From NCBI GenBank assembly GCA_024404915.1, contig JAKSPJ010000004.1, forward strand, positions 62,001-126,000: 64,000 nucleotides of DNA. Reading direction: 5' to 3'. This document shows, piece by piece, positions 8,139-16,534 of this stretch (its first letter is position 1; each line of letters starts with the position of its first letter). The stretch is from Oscillospiraceae bacterium (GTDB lineage Bacteria > Bacillota > Clostridia > Oscillospirales > Ruminococcaceae). Below the pieces are notes generated by a model. The model made no database searches. It was not told the origin of the DNA and saw only the letters and a program-made list of their open reading frames with translations. The position numbers were made by a program, and so were the translations under genes.

Positions 8139-9551
8139 ATGTTATTCAGCAGTCCGATATTTTTATTTTTGTTTTTTCCGCTGGTACTGATTTGTTATTT
8201 TCTGATTCCATCCAGATTTCTGAAAGTGCGAAATGCCTTTCTGACCATCGCCAGCCTGGTGTTTTATGGCTTCGGGGAACCCTTTGCCATGCTTCTGATG
8301 CTGGCGGTGGTGGGATGGAGCTGGGGCGCAGCTCTTCTGATGCAGAAAATACAACCGTTTCGGCGGTATTTTCTTATCCTGGGAATCCTGGGAAACCTGG
8401 GAGCACTTTGTGTTTATAAATACACCAATTTCCTGATTGAAACCCTCAATGCCTGTCTGCATCTGGAGATTGCTGCCGTTGAGATCCGTCTGCCCATTGG
8501 CATATCCTTTTTCATTTTCCAGGCAATATCATACATCATGGATGTGTCACGGAATGAAGCAAAGACACAGCGCAGTTATTGGAAACTACTGCTCTATATC
8601 TCATTCTTCCCCCAGCTGATTGCAGGCCCCATTGTTCGTTATCAGACCATAGAAGATGCCATCAGCAGCCGCACTTCCACGCCGGAAATGGTGGCAGAGG
8701 GCATGCGCAATATGATTTTCGGCTTGTCAAAAAAGCTGTTGATTGCGGATGTTGCAGGAAAAATTGCAGATACGGTTTTTCAGATGGATGATGCCCTGCT
8801 GCTGCCGGCTGCATGGATTGGCGCACTGTGCTATACCCTTCAGATCTACTATGATTTTTCCGGCTACAGCGATATGGCCGTAGGCATGGGAAAGATATTC
8901 GGTTTTGTATTTCCTGAGAATTTCTGCTATCCCTACAGTGCCGCTTCCATCACGGATTTCTGGAAGAGATGGCATATTTCCCTGACCACATGGTTCCGTC
9001 AGTATCTGTACATTCCTCTTGGCGGCAACCGCAAGGGCACTGCCAGAACAATTCTGAACAAATGGATTGTCTTTTTATGCACCGGCCTATGGCATGGCGC
9101 AAGCTGGACATTTGTCCTCTGGGGTGCCATGAACGGCTTGCTGATGACCATAGAACAGCTGCTCCGTGGCGGGAAGAAAAAGGCTTCCTCCGGCAAATGG
9201 TATATGCATGTGTATACCATTCTTGCAGTGATGCTTGCATTTGTGATGTTCCGTGCAGATACAGTGACACAGGCCTGTCATTTCTATCAGGCTATGTTTT
9301 CAGTGTCGGGATTGTCCCGCAGGGGCTTTGCTGCAATAATGCCTTTGCTTTCGCCCATGACAGTGACAGTATTAATTGCAGCATGTATTCTTGCATGGCC
9401 GATTCCGAAAAAACTATATGCGGCGGCGAAAAAGAAATCTGCTGCGGCCGCTGAAATCGGCTGTGATATTCTGTGCGTATTGCTGCTGCTGCTCTGTATT
9501 ACGAATGCAGCTGCCACATCCTATCACCCGTTTATCTATTTCCGATTCTGA
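8139..9551 (+). CDS. MBOAT family O-acyltransferase (AlgI/DltB-like)
   Basis: The 470-residue polytopic membrane protein starts with the AlgI-type MLFSSPIFLFLFFPLVL segment and carries the conserved ITDFWKRWHISLTTW region (His 279) and LWHGASWTF with the catalytic His at 319. MBOAT proteins of this branch move acyl, usually acetyl, groups across the membrane for O-acylation of extracellular polysaccharides or teichoic acids. The next gene encodes the DHHW/AlgJ-type partner that normally completes the reaction outside the cell, so the pair probably acetylates a surface glycan. The acceptor is unknown. The start has GGAG 9 bases upstream. Confidence 0.93.
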   Translation: MLFSSPIFLFLFFPLVLICYFLIPSRFLKVRNAFLTIASLVFYGFGEPFAMLLMLAVVGWSWGAALLMQKIQPFRRYFLILGILGNLGALCVYKYTNFLIETLNACLHLEIAAVEIRLPIGISFFIFQAISYIMDVSRNEAKTQRSYWKLLLYISFFPQLIAGPIVRYQTIEDAISSRTSTPEMVAEGMRNMIFGLSKKLLIADVAGKIADTVFQMDDALLLPAAWIGALCYTLQIYYDFSGYSDMAVGMGKIFGFVFPENFCYPYSAASITDFWKRWHISLTTWFRQYLYIPLGGNRKGTARTILNKWIVFLCTGLWHGASWTFVLWGAMNGLLMTIEQLLRGGKKKASSGKWYMHVYTILAVMLAFVMFRADTVTQACHFYQAMFSVSGLSRRGFAAIMPLLSPMTVTVLIAACILAWPIPKKLYAAAKKKSAAAAEIGCDILCVLLLLLCITNAAATSYHPFIYFRF

Positions 9552-9567
9552 AGAAGGAGGGAAAAAC

Positions 9568-11019
9568 ATGAAATCATGGATACAAACAGTGAGAATCGGC
9601 TTTGCCGCAGGCTGTGCAGTCATTCTGGCAGTGCCTTCTGTGATGATGTTGGTTCCCCAGATACGGGAGCGCAACGCAGAGAATTCAGAAAATCGGGAAC
9701 TGGTTTCTTTCCCATCATTCCGCAGGGATGATGGCACACTGGACATATCATGTTTACCTGTGACGGGAGATTGGTTCTCAGACCATTTTGCATTCCGCAC
9801 AGACCTGATCCGGGCATATGGTGCACTGACAAAGTTTATTTTTTCCGAATCTTCCCAACCTGATGTCATTCTTGGAAAGAATGACTGGCTCTATTACACC
9901 CCCACAATCAACGATGTCTCAGGAGTTTCGACCATCAGTGAAGCAGGAATTCAGCACATGGTACAGAATCTGCATCTGATGCAGCAATATGCGGAATCCA
10001 ATGGCGCAAAGCTGGTTCTGGCGGTGGCTCCCAATAAGGGCAGTATCTATCCGGAATATCTGCCGTCCCGCTATCTGCATACGGGTGAAATGAATCACCT
10101 GGATATGCTGATGCAGGCATTGGAGAACACAGATATTGCCGTCTGCGACTGGAGAACCTATCTGCGGAACGAGAAGGAAAAAGGAGGAGAACAGCTGTAT
10201 CATAAGCTGGATACCCACTGGAATGGCGCAGGTGCTATGGCGGCATATGAAGCCATGATGCAGACACTGGAACTGGATGATGCAGGTTTTTCCGCATATC
10301 CGAAAAGAGAGACAAATGACTGGGAAGGAGATTTGTGGGGTATGCTCTCACCCGGCAGAAAAAATCCCGATACAAATTATGTCTATGACATTCCTCAGAC
10401 CTATCGTGCTGTAGGAAGAATGCGCTCAACTGACGATATGACCATTCGCACAAAAAATGCCCAGGGAAGCGGCAGCTGTCTTATGTTCCGTGATTCCTTC
10501 GGCCGTGCTATGATACCTCTGTTTTCCCAGCGTTTTCAAAGCTGTACCTATTCCAGGGCAACGGAAGTGCCGCTGAATGAAACTGCGGAATCAGATGTGG
10601 ATTATGTCATCTATGAAGTTGTGGAGCGCAATCTGGAAAATCTGATACTGTATTCTCCTTATATACCTGCTCCTATGGCAGATGCACCTGCTGCGGCATC
10701 AGAAACCGCTGACATCAATTTGCTGAATCTGAAAACGGAAACAGATGGTACGTTTATGCGGATTTACGGCAGCTATGATATTGCCTATACGGATTGTGAG
10801 CGCATTATCTGCGGTGTGGAATGTGATGGCGGAATGCAGTATTACGATGCTTTTCTGACCTGTTCTTCAGATGAAACAAACGCAGACACCGTGAATGAAA
10901 ACGGTTTTTCCCTTCGCCTTCCTGTATCTCAGGTACAGGGAAACTGCAATGTGCAGATTTTCGGCATGCGCAGCGGAGAAATCATTTTTCTTGGCAGCAC
11001 CAGTCTGCAGGGTGCGTAA
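9568..11019 (+). CDS. DHHW-family (AlgJ/AlgX-like) extracellular acetyltransferase partner
   Basis: The ATG at 9568, preceded by AAGGAGG, gives 483 residues. An N-terminal membrane anchor (about 8-30) is followed by an SGNH-hydrolase-like domain with LGKNDWLYY near 102, the Asp-x-His motif in KLDTHWNGAGA (Asp 215, His 217) and the Ser region MFRDSFGRAM near 305. These match the catalytic Ser-Asp-His set of AlgJ/AlgX proteins, which transfer acetyl from the MBOAT protein to a polysaccharide. The last 130 residues appear to form an extra beta-rich domain. It is 16 bases after the MBOAT gene and surely co-transcribed. Confidence 0.88.
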   Translation: MKSWIQTVRIGFAAGCAVILAVPSVMMLVPQIRERNAENSENRELVSFPSFRRDDGTLDISCLPVTGDWFSDHFAFRTDLIRAYGALTKFIFSESSQPDVILGKNDWLYYTPTINDVSGVSTISEAGIQHMVQNLHLMQQYAESNGAKLVLAVAPNKGSIYPEYLPSRYLHTGEMNHLDMLMQALENTDIAVCDWRTYLRNEKEKGGEQLYHKLDTHWNGAGAMAAYEAMMQTLELDDAGFSAYPKRETNDWEGDLWGMLSPGRKNPDTNYVYDIPQTYRAVGRMRSTDDMTIRTKNAQGSGSCLMFRDSFGRAMIPLFSQRFQSCTYSRATEVPLNETAESDVDYVIYEVVERNLENLILYSPYIPAPMADAPAAASETADINLLNLKTETDGTFMRIYGSYDIAYTDCERIICGVECDGGMQYYDAFLTCSSDETNADTVNENGFSLRLPVSQVQGNCNVQIFGMRSGEIIFLGSTSLQGA

Positions 11020-12870: not shown

Positions 12871-12914
12871 TGTAGGGTATTCATTTGCAAAAAAAATGAT
12901 TGGAGGCAGCAAAA

Positions 12915-13628
12915 ATGAATGAAGATTTTCCCCGCATCATTACTCTGCAGCGAAAAGAAAGAAAAATCAGTCAGAAAAAAGCCGCAACAGACCTTGGTAT
13001 TTCTCAGGCTCTGCTCTCACACTATGAAAAAGGCATCCGTGAATGCGGACTGGATTTCCTGGTGAGAATCGCTGACTACTACAATGTGTCCTGCGATTAT
13101 CTTCTGGGCAGAACGCCGGAGCCGGGCGGAAAAACCCTGACCATTGAGGAGATTCCGGACGATGACGGAAACAACGAGATGCCCTCCAACGAAGCCATTC
13201 GCTTCTATCGGAAGATTATCAACAATTCCATCAGTCTGCTGTTTTCTTTCTCCCAGCGTGCCAATTCTGTTACATTGATTCGTGAGGTATCGTCCTATCT
13301 GATGCTTTCCGTTTACAAGCTGTTCCGCATTATCTACAATGCGTGCCCCCACAATGACCAGAAACTGTTCCGTGTCCCGAAGGTGGTGGCAAACGACAGC
13401 TCCAATGCCATCATTTCCCTGAACGAGTCCAATATCAAGGCTGCATCCAGCGGCATTACCATTGGAACAAATGATGCAGTTGAGGACGCAGAGTCATTGT
13501 ATGTTACAACCGCAACGCTGTCCAAGGATTTCTCGGAGTACGCATCTTCCCTGCTGAACCTGATTAAGATCAGCGAGGACAGCATTGCAAAAACCAGAGA
13601 CACCTTGCAGACACAGCATCGCCCGTAA
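12915..13628 (+). CDS. Xre-family helix-turn-helix regulator
   Basis: The ATG at 12915 lies 8 bases after GGAGG; an upstream TTG overlaps that SD and is rejected. Residues 5-65 form a Cro/C1-type HTH (RKERKISQKKAATDLGISQ, then LLSHYEKG and ADYYNVSCDYLLGR). The remaining 170 residues are helical, without a recognised sensor domain. The 237-residue protein is larger than a simple Xre repressor. It has its own promoter and lies before rnfC, which could be a target; that link is inference only. Confidence 0.88.
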   Translation: MNEDFPRIITLQRKERKISQKKAATDLGISQALLSHYEKGIRECGLDFLVRIADYYNVSCDYLLGRTPEPGGKTLTIEEIPDDDGNNEMPSNEAIRFYRKIINNSISLLFSFSQRANSVTLIREVSSYLMLSVYKLFRIIYNACPHNDQKLFRVPKVVANDSSNAIISLNESNIKAASSGITIGTNDAVEDAESLYVTTATLSKDFSEYASSLLNLIKISEDSIAKTRDTLQTQHRP

Positions 13629-13752: not shown

Positions 13753-15027
13753 TTGAACCGTTTGAACGGTATCGTTCTTCCAAAGAAAAAATCAGCTGCA
13801 AATCTTGAGACTGCCGCAATTGAAATACCGGAACTTGTACGAATTCCCATGCTGATGCATCAGGGAACTCCCTGCACTCCTGTTGTACAGCCCGGAGACA
13901 CTGTGAAAGTGGGTCAGCTCATTGGCAGTGCTGATGCAGAGGATGCAGTACCGATACACGCCAGTGTATCCGGAACTGTTTCTGCAATCAGCCAATATCA
14001 GATTGGCAGGGATTCTGTGCCGTGTATCGAAATCGAGCCCGACGGCATGCAGATTCTCTCAGAAACCTGCCAGCCCCCCCTGCTGAAAAAACGGGAAGAC
14101 CTGATTGCCGCCGCAAAAAATGCAGGATGCGTCGGCCTTGGCGGCTCCGGAAAACCGACACATCTGAAACTGGCCGCATCCTCCGGGTTTGATATGCTGA
14201 TTCTGAACGGCGCAGAATGTGAGACAGATTTGTCTTCCGATATGCGCATGATGCTGGAGCACGGCGAGGATATTGTAAGCGGTGCCGAAATGATTATGAA
14301 GCTGATGAAAATCAAGGAGACCCGTATCAGCATTCTTTCCAATCAGACAGAAATAATACGGCACATGATGGATTTGTGCGAAGGGAAGAAGGGAATTTCC
14401 ATATGCCCTCTGCCTGTGCAGTATCCCCAGGGTGCAGAAAAAGTGGCGGTGTATCATACCTGCGGCCGCCTGATAACAGAAAAGCAGACCGCTGCAGATG
14501 TGGGTGTCCTGCTGCTGAATGTCAGCACATGTGCCTTTTTGTATCAATACAGTCAGAGCGGTATGCCGCTGGTGGAACGTGTGGTAACTGTCAGCGGAGA
14601 CTGCGTCGAGCACCCCTGCAATCTGCGTGTTCCTGTAGGAACGCCTGCAAAAGTTCTTCTGGAATATGCATCCTGCAGTTTTTCTGCCCTGTCCGAATTG
14701 TACCGGGGCGGAAGAATGATGGGGGCATGTCTGGAATCTTCTGAAGAGCCGATTCTCCGGCAGCAGAACGGACTTACCGCTGTCAGAAAACAGAAAAAGA
14801 CAACGCCGTCCACATGCATCCGCTGCGGACAATGTATGCGTGCATGTCCCATGCATCTGATGCCGATGGAACTGGAACATGCCTATCGTGTGCAGAATAT
14901 CCGTATGCTTCAGAAATACCATGTTTCCCTGTGTCTGAACTGCGGAAGCTGCTCTTATGTATGTCCCGCCAAAAGACCATTGTGTGAGACAAATCAGCTT
15001 GCCATTGCACTGCTGCCCAAAGAGTGA
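13753..15027 (+). CDS. rnfC: RnfC-like electron-transport complex subunit with altered flavin motif
   Basis: The TTG start at 13753 follows AAAGGAAG and gives 424 residues. Family motifs include the NuoF-like VGLGGSGKPTHLK (about 128-139), LILNGAECETDL (about 149-160), YPQGAEK, and two C-terminal [4Fe-4S] motifs, CIRCGQCMRACP and CLNCGSCSYVCP. RnfC is the peripheral NADH-oxidising subunit of the Rnf ferredoxin:NAD oxidoreductase. The usual aromatic residue before PT in the flavin/NADH loop is Lys here, and the Pro of the usual ECEP segment is Thr. Only rnfD follows. Identity is good; whether it still works in a canonical Rnf complex is doubtful. Confidence 0.85.
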   Translation: MNRLNGIVLPKKKSAANLETAAIEIPELVRIPMLMHQGTPCTPVVQPGDTVKVGQLIGSADAEDAVPIHASVSGTVSAISQYQIGRDSVPCIEIEPDGMQILSETCQPPLLKKREDLIAAAKNAGCVGLGGSGKPTHLKLAASSGFDMLILNGAECETDLSSDMRMMLEHGEDIVSGAEMIMKLMKIKETRISILSNQTEIIRHMMDLCEGKKGISICPLPVQYPQGAEKVAVYHTCGRLITEKQTAADVGVLLLNVSTCAFLYQYSQSGMPLVERVVTVSGDCVEHPCNLRVPVGTPAKVLLEYASCSFSALSELYRGGRMMGACLESSEEPILRQQNGLTAVRKQKKTTPSTCIRCGQCMRACPMHLMPMELEHAYRVQNIRMLQKYHVSLCLNCGSCSYVCPAKRPLCETNQLAIALLPKE

Positions 15028-15038
15028 AAGGAGATATT

Positions 15039-15962
15039 TTGGAGAAACTACATATCAGTGCATCACCCCATATCCGTCAGCGCTGTACGGTCACTTCCCT
15101 GCTGTTCCATGTGATTGCGGCATTGCTGCCCACGGTATCAGCAGGCTGTCTGGTATATGGCACTTCCGGCGTGATGGTACTGTGTTCCACCGTATGTGCG
15201 GCGGTTGCTGCCGATTTGCTTTGCAGCCTGGCAGTACATCAGCCCAAAGCGGCCTTGAACGGCAGTTCTGTAATTACAGGTTTGCTGCTGGGTCTTTCTC
15301 TGCCGGCTGACATACCCATATGGCATGCAGCCCTTGGCAGTGTCATTGCGATTGTGCTTGTCAAGCAGCTGTTTGGCGGCATTGGAAAAAATTTTGCTAA
15401 TCCTGCAATGACTGCAAAAATTGTTCTGATGGTTCTGTATGCCTCCGAAATGAAAATCTGGCATATGACTGCAGCACAGACAGCAGCAGAAAAATGGACA
15501 TCTTCCGGCGCCGTTATCCGCATGCTTCTGGAACAGAACAACGGCATGATTGGTGAAAGCTGCGGCATTGCAATTATTCTCGGCGGACTGTATCTGGTGA
15601 TAAAGAAAATCATCTCGCCGGTGACGCCTCTTTCCTATTTTATCAGTTATGCCGTATTAAATCTGGTGTTCCGGATGGATGTGCCTGCAGAACTGACTTC
15701 CGGCAGTTTGCTGCTGGGATGTTTCTTCCTGTCCGCAGATTACACCACAACGCCATTGACCGTACCGGGCAAGTGTCTGTTCGGCATTGGCTGCGGCTGT
15801 CTCACCTTCCTGATTCGCTATCTTGGCGGTTTCGGTGACAGCGTCGCATTGGCTGTGGTCATCATGAACCTGTTTACGCCGCTGCTGGATTCCCTCACAA
15901 GAACAAAGCCCTTCGGAACAATTCTGAAGCTGCCTTCGGAACCAGCAGAAAGCAAATCATAA
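15039..15962 (+). CDS. rnfD: RnfD-like membrane subunit lacking the covalent-flavin Thr
   Basis: The TTG at 15039 follows AAAGGAG by 5 bases and is preferred over a GTG at 15024 that overlaps that SD. The 307-residue protein has about eight to ten transmembrane segments and RnfD/NqrB-like blocks such as NPAMTAKIVLM, GESCGIAIILGGLYL and FFLSADYTTTPLT. The position matching the family's S/T-G-A-T flavinylation motif reads SSGAV, with Val 159 where Thr normally carries FMN. No rnfG, E, A or B follows; a terminator ends the unit. RnfD normally sits in the membrane and passes electrons between the flavin-bearing subunits. Confidence 0.85.
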   Translation: MEKLHISASPHIRQRCTVTSLLFHVIAALLPTVSAGCLVYGTSGVMVLCSTVCAAVAADLLCSLAVHQPKAALNGSSVITGLLLGLSLPADIPIWHAALGSVIAIVLVKQLFGGIGKNFANPAMTAKIVLMVLYASEMKIWHMTAAQTAAEKWTSSGAVIRMLLEQNNGMIGESCGIAIILGGLYLVIKKIISPVTPLSYFISYAVLNLVFRMDVPAELTSGSLLLGCFFLSADYTTTPLTVPGKCLFGIGCGCLTFLIRYLGGFGDSVALAVVIMNLFTPLLDSLTRTKPFGTILKLPSEPAESKS

Positions 15963-16014
15963 TAAAGAAAAGAAAACGCTGCTGCAATAAGACGAATACC
16001 CATATAGAAGTTTT

Positions 16015-16053
16015 GCCCCCAAGCGTTTATGCGCTTAGGGGCATTATATTTTA
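16015..16053 (+). terminator. Terminator after rnfD
   Basis: An 11-position stem with one mismatch (16015-16025 with 16032-16042) is followed by ATTATATTTT. It closes the rnfCD unit after only two genes. Confidence 0.8.
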
Positions 16054-16078: not shown

Positions 16079-16534
16079 TTATCTTTCCAATACAAATCGA
16101 GCAAGTTCTACATTGCCGTCTCTTTCAGTTGATTCGATATGGAATCCGCATTTTTCAGTATAAAACTTCACATTTTGTTTTTTGCTTATGGGTGTTACTA
16201 AAGTGAGCATCTTCCAATCTTCATAAGATGTCTTTACAAATTGAATTGCTTGTGTCCCTATCCCTTTTCCTTGATACTCCGGAATAACGCACAAACAACT
16301 AATCTCATAAGTTCCGTTTTCCAGTTTTATACATGAAACACAGCCGACAGATTCATTATCGCATAGTATGATATATTTTATATATTTGCTGATCGACTCT
16401 TCCATCATTTCTTTTGTTTTCCCATATCCCGGGCACGAACCATATCGCATATAATCATCATAAAAAGACGCATTATAGATATTTACCAATAGTTCTGCGT
16501 CTTCTAAAACAGCCTGCCTGTATTCTATCGTCAT
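16079..16534 (-). CDS. GNAT-family N-acetyltransferase
   Basis: The 151-residue protein has the GNAT fold: an N-terminal EYRQAVLEDAELLVNIY helix, the acetyl-CoA loop motif YQGKGIGTQAI near 93-103, and a C-terminal KFYTEKCGFHIE block. Substrate cannot be inferred. Its codons are visibly more AT-rich than those of its neighbours, and it lies alone between the rnfCD terminator and a perfect-looking inverted repeat, so recent acquisition is plausible. Confidence 0.85.
   Translation of the reverse strand: MTIEYRQAVLEDAELLVNIYNASFYDDYMRYGSCPGYGKTKEMMEESISKYIKYIILCDNESVGCVSCIKLENGTYEISCLCVIPEYQGKGIGTQAIQFVKTSYEDWKMLTLVTPISKKQNVKFYTEKCGFHIESTERDGNVELARFVLER

Follow-up and report, generated by a model that had tools for sequence, protein, structure and literature searches.

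Rnf is regarded as a six-subunit machine with mutually dependent parts, and an rnfC and an rnfD that stand without the remaining genes raise the question of what such a pair could still do, and whether it is a working unit or the remnant of a lost operon. We analysed a pair of this kind in a 64,000-nt stretch of DNA (the window) from the genome of an Oscillospiraceae bacterium. In the complete complex, the electron path runs from RnfB to the cluster of RnfA/E, then to the FMN of RnfG and the FMN and riboflavin of RnfD, and it ends with the two Fe-S clusters and the FMN of RnfC, from which NAD+ is reached (PMC9588780, PMC11889175).

An ORF and profile search of the window found rnfC and rnfD intact and the other Rnf genes absent (Table 1). 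The locus lies in the middle of its contig (C29, 197 kb), and an assembly edge as the cause was therefore rejected. Both genes begin with TTG, as the preliminary description had stated; that of rnfD is 12 nt past the rnfC stop and is preceded by an AAAGGAG ribosome site, and translation could also begin at a GTG at 15024 that overlaps the rnfC stop. For rnfC, relatives use ATG, and within the genus the TTG start is found in the window only. Since several relatives also start rnfD with TTG, such starts carry little meaning, and we rejected them as a sign of decay. The closing terminator proposed in the same description is plausible: no shuffled sequence folded as well as the hairpin 3' of rnfD, and ATTATATTTT comes next. 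A simple terminator scan did not pick up this hairpin.

Table 1. Features of the rnfC-rnfD locus, in window coordinates
Feature	Position	Strand	Evidence
XRE-family (HTH_3) regulator, 5' of rnfC	12900..13628	+	Pfam HTH_3, 5.8e-13
rnfC-like gene, 424 aa, TTG start	13753..15027	+	TIGR01945, Pfam domains, AlphaFold model, residue table
RnfC loop VGLGGSGKPTHLK, residues 127-139, Phe134 of GGAGFPT replaced by Lys	14131..14169	+	
RnfC 4Fe-4S motifs CIRCGQCMRACP and CLNCGSCSYVCP	14815..14970	+	Eight Cys, residue table
rnfD-like gene, 307 aa from TTG	15039..15962	+	PF03116, AlphaFold model, residue table
Terminator-like hairpin 3' of rnfD	~16014..16043	+	RNA fold -22.4 kcal/mol, z -4.45

Both proteins belong to the families after which they are named. 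RnfC scores 362 bits with TIGR01945 (cut-off 246), and RnfD scores 275 bits with PF03116 (cut-off 27.7) and 210 with TIGR01946 (cut-off 207). The Pfam domains of RnfC comprise a barrel-sandwich domain, a NuoF-like FMN domain, an SLBB domain and two intact [4Fe-4S] motifs. AlphaFold models built from homologue alignments reached a pLDDT of 94.2 for RnfC and 83.7 for RnfD, and their best matches were the corresponding subunits of Acetobacterium woodii, 9eri_C (Z 50.7, 1.7 Å over 424 residues) and 9eri_D (Z 36.5, 3.3 Å over 288 residues). The RnfD model has the 10-helix NqrB/RnfD fold.

The remainder of the complex was sought throughout the genome of the window (2.33 Mb in 34 contigs, 96.5% complete and 0.2% contaminated); the analysis is based on MAG data. 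Genome-wide searches returned a single PF03116 match, namely the RnfD of the window, and a single true RnfC, with no second copy of either. No match to PF02508 (RnfA/E) or to PF04205 (RnfG-type FMN_bind) was found anywhere in this genome, and no ApbE. A search with PF04060 found no RnfB-like protein in it; the two matches both lie in open frames of 565-581 aa, and the one of them that was scanned is of the [FeFe]-hydrogenase type (Fe_hyd_lg_C) and not RnfB, which in relatives with complete operons has 270-302 aa and adjoins rnfA. The positive controls (E. coli, Bacteroides, Thermotoga and Methanosarcina) behaved as expected. The window genome thus lacks the six-subunit Rnf set (C, D, G, E, A, B), and with PF04205 and PF02508 absent it also lacks the NqrC/D/E-type subunits of Na+-NQR. 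Nor is the pair an NQR/RNF-like flavinylated system, RnfD being unfused and ApbE and FMN_bind absent. The family searches therefore confirm over the whole genome what had been noted in the window, an isolated rnfC-rnfD without rnfG, E, A or B.

Subunits encoded elsewhere could complete the complex if the operon were split, and many relatives do carry a second, divergent rnfDEA cluster. However, the window genome and the genome G189 have no PF02508 match at all, RnfB was not found in the window genome, and in the E' and A' proteins of the second cluster the cysteines that ligate the RnfA/E [2Fe-2S] cluster are missing. A split operon is refuted in the window genome unless the missing 3.5% carries all four genes, and we regard it as practically excluded. 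Complementation by this cluster was likewise rejected: the window genome does not have it, and its A' and E' are without the [2Fe-2S] cysteines, which makes an electron-transferring Rnf unlikely for it. It was seen in many family members (L121:5020-7116, minus strand, and also L088-L093, L124 and L226) and adjoins a ribulose-phosphate epimerase gene in the genus of the window. A cluster annotated rnfDEA has been reported in Faecalibacterium duncaniae (PMC10781979).

A comparison of 30 genomes of the Ruminococcus-like genus revealed both states of the locus: 17 genomes have rnfCD only (CD-only), seven have the complete rnfCDGEAB (in three of these a contig ends inside or near the operon), and six, most of them incomplete, gave no rnfCD match. 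The order of genes is the same in both states, and reads NfeD-like, histidine phosphatase, XRE, apbE where present, rnfC, rnfD, then rnfG, E, A and B where present, and common downstream genes. In 16 of the 17 CD-only genomes rnfD runs directly into these downstream genes on one contig; in the other, G272, the contig ends first. Since complete and reduced loci occupy the same slot, we conclude that GEAB was deleted and CD retained. In a tree of RnfC+RnfD the 17 CD-only species form one clade (SH-aLRT 100) nested among complete-operon lineages, and a tree of the flanking genes agrees with it except for one unresolved fork with G255. This comparison shows that the locus was reduced from a complete XRE-(apbE)-rnfCDGEAB arrangement: an ancestor within the genus, from which one clade descends, lost rnfG, E, A and B at that site, with apbE where this was linked, and retained rnfC and rnfD as a two-gene unit.

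Reduced loci also occur in two other genera of the family, as XRE-rnfC-rnfD in G159 (with complete congeners G065 and G227) and as XRE-apbE-rnfC-rnfD in G193 (with the complete congener G113). The RnfC+RnfD tree puts both with G113, probably by long-branch attraction, and outside the genus the branches of the flank tree are very long, the count of independent reductions there being based on taxonomy plus placement. Two further CD-only candidates, G214 and G059, were rejected as contig-edge truncations. Among the best 80 RnfC loci of named genomes, judged only where the contig was long enough, GEAB is missing only in the genus of the window (L125, L127, L201). The named near neighbours are the MAGs Ruminococcus sp. 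UBA4275, UBA4350 and uncultured Ruminococcus, and the complete-operon Oscillospiraceae bacterium Tb.RUG.516. G036 has no PF02508 match, yet its RnfD match is of canonical strength. Several family genomes of 0.7-0.9 Mb (L119 from G087, L120 from G068, and G161, G175 and G228) have a single divergent RnfD-like protein with no more than one weak match of the RnfA/E type, and are possibly further reductions; no RnfC was found near the divergent RnfD-like gene in the two small-genome loci inspected.

Is the reduced pair maintained, or is it on its way out? The preliminary description had allowed for both possibilities: a simplified module in its own right, or a locus in decay. Both ORFs are open, in the same slot, in at least 17 CD-only species, with none of the stop codons that decay could have left in relatives, and dN/dS by Nei-Gojobori for the closest CD-only pairs is 0.04-0.11 for RnfC and 0.06-0.10 for RnfD, which indicates purifying selection; for wider CD-only pairs it is 0.09-0.25, against 0.13-0.19 for rnfC/rnfD of complete operons. 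A pseudogene was rejected by ORF integrity and dN/dS. The proteins have nonetheless changed faster than their flanks: at equal flank distance, the p-distance of RnfC+RnfD to those of the complete-operon G254 is 0.39-0.51 for CD-only members versus 0.32-0.34 for complete sisters, and the window lineage is the longest branch within the genus. This faster change fits repurposing with partly changed constraint, and it also fits partly relaxed constraint. It would be expected, together with the loss of motif residues (see below), of a leftover of the deleted operon that is slowly decaying and awaiting loss. We nevertheless hold slow decay to be rather improbable and already largely refuted, given the open frames, the low dN/dS of the closest pairs, the invariance of the cofactor ligands and the same outcome in two further genera. 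The simplified module, conserved as a clade of its own, is what stands of the two earlier possibilities.

To see what had been kept, residues were tabulated in 80 complete-operon homologues and in 19 CD-only members (the 17 of the genus, G193 and G159). In RnfC, Phe134 of GGAGFPT, which we take to stack on NADH by homology to NuoF/Nqo1 of complex I, is found in 80/80 complete and 0/19 CD-only sequences: the window has Lys, G193 has Leu in a milder variant of the loop (GQSGAGLPT), and in G159 the loop is gone. The Rnf NAD(H) loop, GGA(G/T)FPT with its Phe, is accordingly not present in the RnfC of the window. Pro158 of ECEPY is likewise found in all 80 complete homologues, and in 7/19 CD-only members, the window having Thr. 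The changes flagged at first sight in the window (GSGKPT and ECETD, that is, GGAGFPT to GGSGKPT and ECEPY to ECETD) are thus real and part of a clade-wide pattern. The eight Cys of the two [4Fe-4S] clusters are invariant in both sets (19/19 and 80/80), and Lys139, Asn152 and Glu155, which presumably hold the FMN by the same homology to NuoF/Nqo1, are kept in 19/19 CD-only members and in the complete homologues.

RnfD is divided in a similar way. Three residues present in 80/80 complete homologues, Asn87, Thr233 and Arg127, are found in 0/19, 3/19 and 4/19 CD-only members, respectively, and all three are lost in the window. Asn87 and Glu173 correspond to Asn90 and Glu185 of Clostridium tetanomorphum, near the outer FMN, and Asn87 has been proposed as a residue of the Na+ path (PMC9588780). 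The SGAT-type motif, whose Thr carries the covalent FMN described on RnfD (PMC11889175, PMC9588780), is gone in the window, where TAAEKWTSSGAV stands in its place without the flavinylation Thr, and in most CD-only members. It is kept as SSATP, SGATP or TGATP in G251, G256 and G193, so that not every CD-only member is predicted to have lost the outer FMN. Asn121 and Asp234 are kept in 19/19 CD-only and 80/80 complete sequences, and are the equivalents of A. woodii N123 and D249, which hold the riboflavin and are indispensable to Rnf activity (PMC11889175). The window pair has therefore kept the residues for the inner end of the chain (riboflavin, two Fe-S clusters and probably FMN) and lost those for the outer end and the NADH contact. 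Among the reduced loci of other genera, G193 (L115), with apbE and TGATP still present, might represent an early stage of reduction, and G159 (L116), with most of the FMN/NADH loop of RnfC gone, a late one.

These patterns limit what the pair can be doing. RnfB and the [2Fe-2S] cluster of RnfA/E are missing from every CD-only member, and the window also lacks RnfG and, by prediction, the outer FMN of RnfD, so neither a U-shaped electron path nor Na+/H+ pumping is expected; RnfA/E is the ion-translocating unit proposed in A. woodii, and without RnfG, E, A, B and a linked ApbE, and with the loop and FMN site changed, there should be no ferredoxin input either. With its NADH-stacking loop rewritten, RnfC would probably no longer have NAD(H) as its normal substrate. 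From the conserved cofactor residues we infer that RnfCD continues to transfer electrons, pointing to a smaller redox device with a different task. RnfC would still dock on RnfD from the cytoplasmic side, and the two would form a flavin/iron-sulfur oxidoreductase that is anchored in the membrane and faces the cytoplasm, with a chain consisting of the FMN and two [4Fe-4S] clusters of RnfC and then the riboflavin inside RnfD. The new partner is likely to be either a small electron carrier of the cytosol or some molecule that reaches the riboflavin from the membrane. That RnfCD is a repurposed oxidoreductase of the inner face, without ion pumping or Rnf-style use of NAD(H), has in our judgement an even chance of being correct.

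Three other functions were weighed. The invariance of Asn121 and Asp234 in all 19 CD-only and 80 complete sequences, the retention of every Fe-S Cys and the report that canonical RnfD appears dry and non-conducting (PMC11889175) make it unlikely that RnfD has gone back to acting like a transporter or channel, with RnfC bound to it as an Fe-S sensor that regulates it, although the outer flavin site and the putative Na+ path residue Asn87 are changed in CD-only members and the predicted RnfD fold does resemble urea and ammonium transporters (Z 12-14 to UreT/Amt/Rh folds, versus 29-36 to Rnf/Nqr).

A second possibility concerns the adjoining XRE regulator, whose conservation greatly exceeds that of its neighbours (96% identity to its homologues in the CD-only G247 and G251, dN/dS 0.015-0.019). 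By analogy with E. coli, where Rsx reduces SoxR (PMC12174285), RnfCD might signal the cytosolic redox state to this protein. The extreme conservation and the adjacency of XRE and rnfC in complete and reduced loci of several genera would agree with this, but no Fe-S motif is visible in the regulator, its link to complete operons is just as strong, and there it could simply control rnf; we find redox sensing rather unlikely. Less probable still is a one-way half of Rnf, in which RnfCD would oxidise NADH and hand its electrons on to an outer acceptor. NQR/RNF-like systems that work in one direction have been described (PMC8238504), G193 combines apbE, TGATP and the milder loop, and G251 and G256 retain SSATP/SGATP; yet Phe134 is missing from every CD-only RnfC, the window genome has no RnfG-type protein or ApbE, and its RnfD lacks the flavinylation Thr.

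The repurposed oxidoreductase has to be set against known systems. With the Rnf complex (7zc6, 9eri-9erl, 8ahx) the pair shares full-length homology and predicted folds of RnfC and RnfD, the C-D order and genomic slot of complete sisters, and the Fe-S and riboflavin residues, and it differs in the missing RnfG, E, A and B, the altered NADH loop and outer-FMN site, and the lack of a linked ApbE. In Na+-NQR (NqrA-F), NqrB matches the RnfD model with Z 29-32 and NqrA matches RnfC with Z 27-29, and NqrA exemplifies an RnfC homologue that abandoned its original redox role; however, NqrC/D/E-type subunits are absent from the window genome and its RnfC is predicted to keep the Fe-S clusters that NqrA has lost. 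PrdC, associated with proline reductase, is an RnfC-like protein acting outside a complete Rnf, whereas the RnfC of the window is paired with RnfD and is not a PrdC, scoring 151 bits with the PrdC equivalog TIGR04481 (cut-off 490). The flavinylated one-way NQR/RNF-like systems are also reduced sets on an RnfD/NqrB-type membrane subunit, but in them NqrB is fused to the NAD domain of NqrF, and ApbE and FMN_bind are needed (PMC8238504), while in the window the cytosolic part is RnfC and both of these are absent. NqrA/NqrB, PrdC and the NqrB-NqrF fusions are precedents for rearranged parts and distinct from the CD-only state. A search of open-licence papers turned up no account of RnfCD conserved as a unit by itself, and the matches to 'rnfCD' that we examined used it as the name of the full operon.

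We tentatively propose, with a little less than even confidence, that RnfCD is a new class of two-subunit membrane oxidoreductase that has arisen repeatedly from a collapsed Rnf pump and is kept by selection, having discarded NADH use, pumping and, in most members, covalent flavin, its Fe-S clusters and buried riboflavin serving a new redox partner. A two-subunit lineage in the same slot, under selection and with its cofactor sites so precisely split shows that the RnfC-RnfD arm can stand alone, and it provides a natural experiment for telling the residues that serve NADH and the outer flavin from those of the inner chain. The finding further calls for caution, as rnfC and rnfD annotated in gut genomes of the Ruminococcus type do not amount to Rnf energy conservation.

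Two further features of the window were observed. An ORF of the GNAT acetyltransferase type, identified by visual inspection, separates rnfD from the downstream gene (16079-16534, minus strand); it was not seen at the same spot in G247 or G189 (L094, L095) and looks like a later insertion. Upstream of the pair, an MBOAT acyltransferase gene (8139-9551) is followed by an AlgJ-like ORF (9376-11019), which suggests a pair for cell-surface O-acetylation.
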